In this document: positions 28,821 through 57,665 of the stretch, one piece after another | Layout of the letters: each line of letters begins with the position of its first letter | How positions within the stretch are numbered: the first letter of the stretch is position 1 | Assembly: GCF_023973145.1 (NCBI RefSeq) | Contig: NZ_CP099546.1 | Coordinates: 1,240,001 to 1,304,000, forward strand | Origin: Natronosalvus vescus | GTDB taxonomy: Archaea > Halobacteriota > Halobacteria > Halobacteriales > Natrialbaceae | Reading direction: 5' to 3' | DNA length: 64,000 nt | The notes under the pieces: generated by a model | Seen by the model: only the letters and a program-made list of their open reading frames with translations | What the model was told of the DNA's origin: nothing | Database searches by the model: none | Position numbers and translations under genes: made by a program

Positions 28821-29807
28821 ATGAAAGCGACGGCGATGGCCCACCCGATCCAGGGTCTCATCAAGTACCACGGGATGCGCGACGACATCGAGCGACTCCC
28901 GTATCACGACAGCATCAGCGTCTGCACCGCGCCGAGTCACACCCGCACCACCGTCGAGTTCTCGATGGACTACGACGAGGACGTCTACGTCGTCGACGGC
29001 GAGGAACTCGAGGGTCGCGGCTTCGAGCGCCTCGAGGCGGTCGTCGACAAGGCGCGCAACATGTCCGACGCGGCTCACACCGTCTACCCCGTCCGCATCG
29101 AGAGCGAGAACAGCTTCCCTTCGAACGTCGGCCTCGGCTCGTCGTCGTCCGGCTTCGCGGCGGCCGCTAGAGCCCTCGCGGAGGCCGCGGAACTCGACGC
29201 CTCCCTCCAGGACATCTCGACCATCGCCCGCGTCGGCTCGGCGTCGGCCGCGCGTTCGGTGACCGGGGCGTTCTCCCAGCTGTACACCGGCCTGAACGAC
29301 GAGGACTGTCGGTCCCGACGCGTCCCGAGCAACCTCCACGAGGAGCTGAAGATCGTCGTCGGCCTCGTTCCGTACCACAAGGAGACCGAGGACGCCCACG
29401 ACGAGGCCGCGGACAGCCACATGTTCCAGGCGCGAAACGCCCACATCCACGGCCAGATCGCGAAGATGCGCGACGCCCTCCGCAACGACGACTTCGACCG
29501 GGCGTTCGAACTCGCGGAACACGATTCGCTGTCGCTGGCGGCGACGACGATGACCGGCCCCGAGGGCTGGGTGTACTGGCAACCCGCCACGCTGGCCATC
29601 TTCAACAAGGTTCGCGAACTCCGCGAGGAAGAAGACATCCCGGCGTACTTCTCGACAGATACCGGTGCCAGCGTCTACGTCAACACCACCGAGGAACACG
29701 CCGAAACGGTCGAGGAGGCCATCGCCGAGACCGGCGTCTCGACCACCACGTGGGGCGTCGGCGGCCCAGCGCGGTTACTCGAGGACGAGGACGACCACCT
29801 GTTCTAG
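28821..29807 (+). CDS. mvaD: Phosphomevalonate/diphosphomevalonate decarboxylase
   Basis: A GHMP-fold decarboxylase of the mevalonate pathway, 328 residues. The family's ATP loop is FPSNVGLGSSSSGFAAAA and the catalytic Asp lies in FSTDTGASVYV. The N-terminal motif that reads KYWGKRD in classical enzymes is KYHGMRD here, so the second Lys is Met. In Haloferax volcanii the homologue acts on mevalonate 5-phosphate, giving isopentenyl phosphate; this one may do the same. Start ATG 28821 agrees with the TATA spacing. Product feeds archaeal isoprenoid lipids. Confidence 0.9.
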   Translation: MKATAMAHPIQGLIKYHGMRDDIERLPYHDSISVCTAPSHTRTTVEFSMDYDEDVYVVDGEELEGRGFERLEAVVDKARNMSDAAHTVYPVRIESENSFPSNVGLGSSSSGFAAAARALAEAAELDASLQDISTIARVGSASAARSVTGAFSQLYTGLNDEDCRSRRVPSNLHEELKIVVGLVPYHKETEDAHDEAADSHMFQARNAHIHGQIAKMRDALRNDDFDRAFELAEHDSLSLAATTMTGPEGWVYWQPATLAIFNKVRELREEEDIPAYFSTDTGASVYVNTTEEHAETVEEAIAETGVSTTTWGVGGPARLLEDEDDHLF

Positions 29808-29811
29808 AACC

Positions 29812-30044
29812 CACCTTTTGCACTGTCGTCCGGAAGACGCGACGCGTCTTCCGTGATCACGAGACGGCTGCGCCGTCTCGAACGACGTTCTGGCTCACCA
29901 CCGGCAGCGTTGCTGCCGTACGGATCGCCGTCACTCGGCAAAAGCTGGACCAAAAGCATTCCTCGCTCCCGGTGGTCGCTCGTCAGCACGCTCATTCACT
30001 GCGTTCATTCGCGGTGAAAGTCGGTGTACTTTCCTGCCCTTCCC
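29812..30044 (+). repeat. Dispersed structured intergenic element, copy A
   Basis: It begins 4 nt after the mvaD stop with CACCTTTTGC. Three hairpins follow: 29832-29852 (GGAAGACGCG arm), 29860-29880 (CGAGACGGC, loop TGC) and 29902-29918 (CGGCAGC, loop GTT). Then come a 35-nt core at 29936-29970 (CGGCAAAAGCTGGACC, then AAAAGCATTCCTCGCTCCC), a TCGCGGTGAAAGTCGG block at 30009-30024 and CCTGCCCTTCCC at 30033-30044. The same ordered blocks occur at 57292-57520. It may be a 3' RNA element, an RNA gene or a mobile repeat. Confidence 0.75.
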
Positions 30045-30194
30045 TGGGTCGCGAACCGTCGCCAGCGGGGGCGACGGTTCACTCCCGGCCACCACTGCGG
30101 CTGCTGTTTCGTTTCCGGTCAGTGCCGTTTGTACGATTCGGTTTCCTCCAGCCTCGAGCAACTCACCACCGCCGTCACTCGAGCACACTGGAAC

Positions 30195-55777: not shown

Positions 55778-55856
55778 CTCTTTATTCCCAATTTGTCGAT
55801 ACCGAAAGGACGAATTCCCCCGCGAGCCGCCCGACACCGCGAACGCACGAAAAACG

Positions 55857-55865
55857 TTTTCTTAC
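55857..55865 (+). promoter_or_regulatory. TATA-like box of geranylgeranyl reductase gene
   Basis: TTTTCTTAC lies about 26 nt before the ATG at 55887. Confidence 0.5.
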
Positions 55866-55886
55866 CTCGGTGAAGACACTCGGGTT

Positions 55887-57290
55887 ATGAGCAGTATGGA
55901 GCACTCCGCCACGGCGACGACCCAGCGAAACCAGTCACCGGACGTCGTCGTCGTCGGTGCCGGCACAGCAGGGTGTTACGCCGCGGCAACGATCGCCAGG
56001 GCGGGCTACGAGGTCGTCGTTCTCGAGCGAAAGACCGAGGAAGAAGCCGGGCACATCGCCTGCGGCGACGCCCTCAAGGGTGCCGACGCGTTCCCGGAAG
56101 CGATACCGAAATCCCAGCTCGAGCCGGCCTTTACCAACACTGACGTCGACCACGGCCGGTTCGAGATCCCACAGGAAGACACGGTGCTCGATATTCCCAT
56201 TCCGGGCGAACTCGCCGTCATCGACCGCTGGGAGTACGGCCGGCGGGTCATCGAGGGGGCGGCGAACGCCGGGGCCACCTTCCACTACGACACCGTCGTC
56301 CAGGACGTGATCCAGGACAACGGCCGAGTGACGGGCGTGACGGCGATGTCTCGAGGGAACGCGTTCACGTACGAGGCCGACCTCGTCGTCGACGGCGCGG
56401 GCTCGCTCTCGTTGCTCCAGGACAAAGTCGACTTCACGGACTCCACGTTCGACACGAACGTCAACTACTCGCAGTTCTGTTCGGCCTACCGCGAAATCGT
56501 CCACGTCGAGGAACCCGTCGAGTGGTCGGACGCCCTCGTCTTCAAACCGACCGAGCGCGCGGCGGGCTACCTCTGGTACTTCCCCCGCACCGACACCGAG
56601 ATCAACGCCGGCCTCGGCTTCCAGATGACCGAGGAGCCGATGAAACTCGTCGAGGATCTCAAGTACGACCTGCGCAACCGCCCCGAGTTCGCGGGCGCCC
56701 GCGTCGAGGACAAACTCGGTGCCGCCCTCCCCACACGCCGACCCTACGACTCCGCCGTTCATCCTGGATTCGTCGCCGTCGGCGACGCCGCCGGCCACGT
56801 CAACCCCACCACCGGCGGTGGCATCGCGGGGGCCGCCTACGCCGGCAAGTACGCCGGCGAACAGGCCATCGAAGCTCTCGAGACCGGCGACGTGAGCGAG
56901 GAGGTTCTCTGGCGATACAACGAGCGCGTGATGGATCACTACGGCGCTCGCTACGCCGCCCTGGACGTCTACAACATCCTCTCGACGGCCGTCGACGTCG
57001 ACGACCTCATGGGGCTGCTCGCGGCGATGCCCGGCGACAAACTCGCCGAAGCCCTCTACTCCGGGAGTACGGACATCGGCCTGAAGCTCAAACTCGAGGC
57101 GCTGCTCAAGAGTCGCGGCCACTGGGGCACCATCTGGAACCTCTACCAGACCAAGCGCCGCGCCGACGAGATTCTTGCCCACTACGAACAGTATCCCTCG
57201 AGTCCGGACGGCTTCGCGTCCTGGCAGGCCGAACGCGACTACCTCATGCAGAACGTCTACGAGACGACTGGGGCGGATCCGAAGTACTAG
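55887..57290 (+). CDS. Digeranylgeranylglycerophospholipid reductase-like flavoprotein
   Basis: Saturates the isoprenoid chains of archaeal membrane lipids. The 467-residue protein has an N-terminal FAD motif VVVVGAGTAGCYAAATIARAG, the AGHIACGDALKG active-site Cys region typical of geranylgeranyl reductases, and the second FAD contact FVAVGDAAGHVNPTTGGGIA. The C-terminal helices complete the family length. ATG 55887 is used; another ATG lies three codons later. The divergent ferredoxin gene is a plausible electron donor. Paralogues of this family have different lipid or quinone substrates, so exact specificity is open. Confidence 0.9.
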   Translation: MSSMEHSATATTQRNQSPDVVVVGAGTAGCYAAATIARAGYEVVVLERKTEEEAGHIACGDALKGADAFPEAIPKSQLEPAFTNTDVDHGRFEIPQEDTVLDIPIPGELAVIDRWEYGRRVIEGAANAGATFHYDTVVQDVIQDNGRVTGVTAMSRGNAFTYEADLVVDGAGSLSLLQDKVDFTDSTFDTNVNYSQFCSAYREIVHVEEPVEWSDALVFKPTERAAGYLWYFPRTDTEINAGLGFQMTEEPMKLVEDLKYDLRNRPEFAGARVEDKLGAALPTRRPYDSAVHPGFVAVGDAAGHVNPTTGGGIAGAAYAGKYAGEQAIEALETGDVSEEVLWRYNERVMDHYGARYAALDVYNILSTAVDVDDLMGLLAAMPGDKLAEALYSGSTDIGLKLKLEALLKSRGHWGTIWNLYQTKRRADEILAHYEQYPSSPDGFASWQAERDYLMQNVYETTGADPKY

Positions 57291-57665
57291 GCACCGACCT
57301 TTTGCGCTGCGCTCTGACACGCCAGCGCCAACAATGCTGGCGCATGGCGTGTCGACGCTCGGCAAAAGCTCGACCAAAAGCCTTCCTCCCTCCCCTACGG
57401 GTTGGTCGTCGGCCCGCTCGCTCACTGACTCACGGGCGTTGCCCGTTCGTCTATCCGCGGCGCTATGCGCCGCGCTTACGATCGCTCGCGGTGAACGTCG
57501 GCCAACGGCCTGCCCTTCCCCGACTCACGCGTCGCTCACTGACGTTCGCGTCGCGTTCGTGGCCATAGTTCGCTTGCTACAGGTCGCTTGCTACTACGAA
57601 CTGTCCGGTAGTATGCCTTGTTCGGGAAATCGGCACGGAAAACGCAAGAAGTCGAACTGGAGTGG
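57291..57665. other. 375-nt intergenic region holding repeat element B
   Basis: Most is the element described separately. To its right, 57521-57640 is moderately GC-rich with a direct repeat (TTCGCTTGCTAC, then GTCGCTTGCTAC, at about 57569-57595). No protein gene is supported. Confidence 0.6.
57292..57520 (+). repeat. Dispersed structured intergenic element, copy B
   Basis: It starts 1 nt after the reductase stop with CACCGACCTTTTGC. A long hairpin at 57316-57353 (GACACGCCA and GCGCCA arms pairing with TGGCGC and TGGCGTGTC) follows. The core at 57360-57394 (CGGCAAAAGCTCGACC, then AAAAGCCTTCCTCCCTCCC) matches copy A at 32 of 35 positions. Further hairpins lie at 57432-57446 (ACGGGC, GTT, GCCCGT) and 57456-57474 (CGCGGCGC, TAT, GCGCCGCG). 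TCGCGGTGAACGTCGG at 57486-57501 and CCTGCCCTTCCC at 57509-57520 close it. Confidence 0.8.

Follow-up and report, generated by a model that had tools for sequence, protein, structure and literature searches.

The window, i.e. the entire stretch of 64,000 nucleotides of Natronosalvus vescus DNA analysed here, contains two copies of a dispersed, structured, non-coding element, both on the plus strand and directly behind a gene. The first copy follows the TAG stop codon (29805-29807) of mvaD (Pfam MVD-like_N) and covers at full length, from the first base after the stop codon to the motif CCGGCCAC, positions 29808-30092, as delimited by alignment with nine other loci. It opens with the 5' arm of the stem P1, CCACCTTTTGC (29811-29821), recognized by covariation, followed by a nested double hairpin (approximately 29825-29887; 29832-29852 and 29861-29879 linked by GTGATCAC) and an inner hairpin, CGGCAGC-GTT-GCTGCCG (29902-29918), apparent from sequence and fold. 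The core (29938-29957) consists of the P1 3' arm GCAAAAGCTGG (29938-29948) and ACCAAAAGC. Downstream lie a pyrimidine block, ATTCCTCGCTCC (29958-29969), conserved in the multi-copy alignment, the B block or hairpin GCTCGTCAGC...TCGCGGTGA (29978-30017), defined by alignment and mismatch counts, the block CGCGGTGA at 30010, the aligned block CCTGCCCTTCCC (30033-30044) and a terminal hairpin with the right-end motif (30050-30092), supported by alignment and fold. The second copy begins after the TAG stop codon (57288-57290) of a gene for an FAD-dependent oxidoreductase (55800-57290) and spans 57291-57566, the right end being approximate, as judged by alignment, shuffle test and fold; its P1 arms lie at 57295-57305 and 57362-57372, its core at 57362-57381 and its CCTGCCCTTCCC block at 57509-57520.

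An ordered set of blocks directly after mvaD, with a core recurring at 32 of 35 positions in a second element, had been described in the first-pass annotation of this DNA, and that description holds. The element starts at the very base following the TAG, 29808; the 35-nt cores (29934-29968 and 57358-57392) differ at exactly three positions, and 100 shuffled windows yielded zero core matches; the remaining blocks keep their order, with CGCGGTGA and CCTGCCCTTCCC downstream of the core in the first copy and CCTGCCCTTCCC also in the second, and the hairpins between the blocks are different in the two copies. The extent of 29812-30044 originally assigned does lie within the element, but is too short, as a further hairpin beyond 30044 leads to CCGGCCAC at 30092. 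In an alignment of ten copies, which belong to different genes and to several genera, about 280 bp show the same block order throughout, CNACCTTTTRC, a hairpin, GCAAAAGCTSGACCAAAAGC, ACTCCTC.CTCC, GTCGTCGGCCCGCTCGCTC..CTCGCGGTGA, CCTGCCCTYCCC, a last hairpin and CGGCCAC, so that the element reaches 30092 in the first and approximately 57566 in the second copy. A search pattern with a spacing of 25-55 misses the second copy by one base. A coding relic was discarded as an explanation, since a conserved reading frame is not apparent and length-variable hairpins part the blocks.

The nested double hairpin of the first copy is an insert which most copies lack. Plasmid BLAST with the first copy retrieved this double hairpin alone, on haloarchaeal plasmids with the rest of the element missing; the stems of the plasmid modules are of unrelated sequence. 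The module, stem-GTGATSAC-stem, is also present in L018, L056, L083, L111 and L117, either in the P1 loop or elsewhere. Another insert, AAAAGC-AC...ACTCCTCC, beginning with CGGAAGACGG, is located just after the core at two unrelated genes (L010 and L125). A scan of viral contigs with the core gave no match and, as plasmids show only the nested hairpin, a plasmid or virus as vehicle of the element was rejected.

Further copies in related genomes, for which a search had been proposed, were found in large numbers across Halobacteria with both the core and a model, and the element is a member of a class-wide haloarchaeal family that was previously undescribed. The core occurs five times in the host genome (at most two mismatches), in six of eight genomes of the genus and in 36 of 125 genomes of the family, and a GTDB-wide core scan retrieved some 60 stretches of haloarchaeal contigs, among them Haloferax, Halolamina, Halarchaeum, Haladaptatus and Halococcus. 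With a covariance model built on the left module, seven copies are identified in the host genome and 10-13 in five genomes of the genus; 47 of the 69 genomes examined for the class give matches, with up to 35 per genome, whereby these counts are minimum values (at least 7-35 in rich genomes) with 61-150 candidates scored per genome. An eighth copy in the host genome (L164), a diverged T5 subtype, stands behind the gene for the DNA polymerase II large subunit. At L103, the gene for this subunit matches LAGLIDADG/homing endonuclease sequences (intein-like). Rfam 15 holds no family that matches the element in the window, the single hit being a chance miRNA match elsewhere in L003; the core sequences were not found in the papers searched, nor was a publication describing the element.

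P1 is formed by CNACCTTTTRC and GYAAAAGCTNG of the core, which pair across hairpins of 20-116 nt, usually with 10 of 11 positions paired and a C.C mismatch kept at position 4 (113 distinct copies). Next come ACCAAAAGC and a second hairpin, after which the copies of Natrialbaceae have a third one. The stem covaries strongly, a point the first-pass annotation had put forward for verification: in an alignment of 63 sequences 98.4% of cells pair, compared to 92.1% when shuffled and 30-50% when slid, and at pair 17-99, 32 sequences have G-C and 31 have C-G. Behind the FAD-dependent oxidoreductase gene, the outer stem reads CGA/TCG, CGAA/TTCG, CAA/TTG, GCA/TGC or CGTA/TACG depending on the genome. 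Such compensatory-looking stems can alternatively originate from template switching or inter-copy conversion. The notion of conserved single-stranded blocks separated by sequence-free stems is supported in part: the stems keep their shape, but the best-conserved piece, P1 with the core, is itself paired rather than purely single-stranded. Folded as RNA, full-length copies reach a mean z of -3.1 on the plus and -3.9 on the minus strand (-6.0 and -3.6, respectively, for the first copy in the window), and both strands beat shuffled sequences. A subtype represented by L158, L161, L164 and L240 carries longer T/A runs, T5/A5/A5-6. The idea that the three A/T runs form a U.A-U triple helix was set aside; run lengths co-vary at a few loci, but 109 of 111 scored arrays are 4/4/4 and L221 is 5/5/4.

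The mismatches and the types of loop point to the antisense strand of the upstream gene as the one that folds, the case being clearest for single-stranded DNA. In DNA, GNA triloops and sheared GA pairs in tandem are unusually stable. In the hairpins right of the core, the plus strand shows 389 pyrimidine-pyrimidine versus 66 purine-purine mismatches, the by far commonest tandem mismatch is TC/TC (GA/GA on the minus strand) with 107 cases, and TNC triloops on plus, which are GNA on minus, number 107 versus 40 GNA on plus, all of these being counts over related rather than independent copies to which the GCTC-repeat composition contributes. Within the B block of the family, TC/TC on plus is equally tandem GA on minus. 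With DNA energies, P1 has a higher pairing probability on the minus strand in 103 of the 113 copies, with RNA energies in only 71 of 113. The folded RNA proposed initially is supported as far as a structured, dispersed and non-coding element is concerned; its RNA nature is not supported, the strand bias being clear with DNA and weak with RNA energies.

Neighbouring genes were called with a home-made gene caller for 58 Natrialbaceae and 55 other copies. The left neighbour reads into the element in 52 of the 58 Natrialbaceae copies, with a stop codon 1-8 nt before ACC in 43 of 58 (mode 5), and outside Natrialbaceae a stop codon is found 2-8 nt before ACC in 20 of 55. The upstream C-termini comprise 29 distinct ones, including those of mvaD, eIF-1A, ribosomal protein L10e/L16, the DNA polymerase II large subunit, TrkH, TbsP and AsnC-type regulators. 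Among the six Natrialbaceae exceptions, L020, L021, L025 and L163 have one common left flank, and the two of these four that were scanned, L020 and L163, lie 5-8 nt after the SRP RNA gene. Copies L068 and L086 follow a tRNA gene; the distance from the end of the SRP RNA or tRNA gene to the copy amounts to 2-8 nt. None of the 58 Natrialbaceae copies stands between divergent genes. Outside Natrialbaceae seven of 55 do, and several there are located just beyond a promoter, approximately 27-49 nt ahead of the start codon of a divergent gene. In eight 8-kb loci, two copies face each other at a distance of about 250-740 bp. On one strand, a run of T4-T5 follows the gene end at about 10 nt, and the opposite strand has two T runs.

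The element is also kept at orthologous sites. Behind mvaD it is present in several Natrialbaceae genera and missing in most others, and about 17 of 24 Natrialbaceae genomes and a few of other families carry it, in some cases in decayed form, behind the oxidoreductase gene. Most copies in the genus of the window are common to several species at the same gene, and at one orthologous gene the element persists across genera with compensatory changes. Behind the DUF5611 gene of the genus, either the T4 (L003, L009, L017) or the T5 subtype (L158, L161) is encountered, so that the position is kept while the sequence turns over. The alternative of a decayed transposon end, raised in the first-pass annotation, is weakened by this retention, while duplications of gene ends around some copies leave room for past mobility.

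On the basis of these sequence comparisons, we consider with middling confidence that the element represents an old, vertically inherited, REP-like, multi-hairpin extragenic family that has been maintained at the ends of transcripts, where it probably serves as a terminator or insulator in both directions. This predicted boundary role fits the placement behind coding as well as non-coding genes, the T runs on both strands, which with the hairpins would constitute the terminator or insulator, and the opposed pairs between convergent genes; the separation of transcripts would be the reason for which the element is kept. What evolution has recorded would at least partly be the folding of antisense single-stranded DNA, which suggests that a protein reading folded single-stranded DNA may have spread, or held, the family. 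In Haloferax volcanii, T runs are a confirmed terminator motif and one tested hairpin terminated 59% of transcripts (PMC7237163). Counting against a terminator, the motif tested there was T5C, compared to which the T4 of the element is short, and the copies between divergent genes outside Natrialbaceae are at sites where no terminator is needed, several of them directly before promoters. Together with the single-stranded-DNA features, unexpected for a pure terminator, copies between divergent promoters are not explained by the boundary role alone, but fit a REP-like origin. A less likely reading is a previously undescribed class of archaeal gene-boundary element, a multi-hairpin DNA site that would install itself exactly at gene 3' ends, its folded antisense single strand being read by a putative protein, and that would subsequently be kept as a transcript insulator.

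A non-autonomous mobile element, PATE- or MITE-like or a REP moved by a Y1 transposase on folded single-stranded DNA, which landed beside gene ends and was passively retained, is a plausible if rather doubtful alternative. Direct repeats of a gene end or part of a tRNA, 15-132 bp long and some perfect (47/47, 64/64), surround about 18 of 111 copies, although, regarded as target-site duplications, some of these are better explained as tandem duplication. In L023 and L097, part of the right hairpin of the element itself lies within the left repeat, so that at least some duplications are tandem; a retroposon-like insertion with fixed left end, variable right end and long duplications was rejected on the same observation. 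Duplicated gene 3' ends or half tRNAs flank L023, L041, L051, L075, L097, L105, L107, L124 and L126, L107 being a tandem array of three. The aminotransferase-type gene (named by eye from its C-terminal sequence) behind L075, L105 and L126 has the same junction in three genera, and its two copies are more alike within a genome, which suggests that one old event plus conversion may have produced it. The antisense hairpins have GNA triloops and tandem GA, as stable hairpins of single-stranded DNA do; this and the Y1 transposases encoded in all eight genomes of the genus would suit mobility, but in these genomes every element copy is more than 8 kb away from the nearest Y1 gene, the right end is not conserved, and terminal inverted repeats are missing, CNACCTTTTGC at the left and CCGGCCAC at the right end not being inverted copies. 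The sharing of copies at the same genes and the viral and plasmid searches equally speak against it.

A non-coding or cis-acting RNA, be it a structure in the 3' UTR of the gene upstream or of the convergent one or a small RNA in its own right, is quite improbable. The covarying stem, the ordered conserved blocks and fold z values of -3 to -6 speak for such an RNA, but the element has no Rfam match, its strand bias is strong with DNA and weak with RNA energies, and the copies, some standing after tRNA or SRP RNA genes and others between divergent genes, have no transcript context in common. Ribosome stalling has been reported for E. coli REPs located no more than 15 nt from a stop codon (PMC12306157), and the stop-codon spacing of the element is in the same range; a translational brake of this kind is nevertheless highly improbable, and ribosome stalling was dismissed as a general role, as the same spacing is observed behind the untranslated SRP RNA and tRNA genes.

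How transcripts terminate in haloarchaea and what happens at their 3' ends is poorly defined, and most intergenic repeats there lack annotation. An element that is found throughout the class, has a covarying structure, stands at a fixed distance from gene ends and is retained at orthologous sites provides a concrete, testable handle. It also prompts the question which factor in archaea acts on single-stranded DNA in its folded state while leaving no obvious transposase behind.

Among known systems, the element resembles bacterial REP/BIME sequences, which are extragenic and palindromic, close behind stop codons and sometimes arranged as opposed pairs. REP/BIME units, however, measure 20-40 bp and number hundreds, usually more than 100, per genome, whereas the element has 200-300 bp with several hairpins and occurs in tens (minimum counts); its conserved end, CNACCTTTTRC, shows no GTAG/CGTC tag in the alignments, no RAYT is in the neighbourhood (nearest Y1 more than 8 kb away in the genomes of the genus), and it is kept at orthologous sites. 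Integron attC sites likewise keep their structure while the sequence drifts, stand directly behind a gene and fold from one strand, but the conserved arms of the element lack RYYYAAC/GTTRRRY boxes and no cassette arrays were seen. It differs from MITEs in having no terminal inverted repeats. With the PATEs/SMRs of Haloquadratum (PMC3119063), it shares being a transposase-free haloarchaeal repeat with palindromes and nested repeats inserted into hairpins, yet no link to an IS605-type transposon was found, some copies are flanked by duplications and its sites are gene 3' ends, the distinction from PATEs being drawn from their published description. Finally, haloarchaeal T-run terminators (PMC7237163) and the element both have a T run, combined with the potential to form a hairpin, directly beyond the end of the gene, the element being set apart by its long conserved architecture, its closing stem, its T runs on both strands and its nature as a dispersed family.
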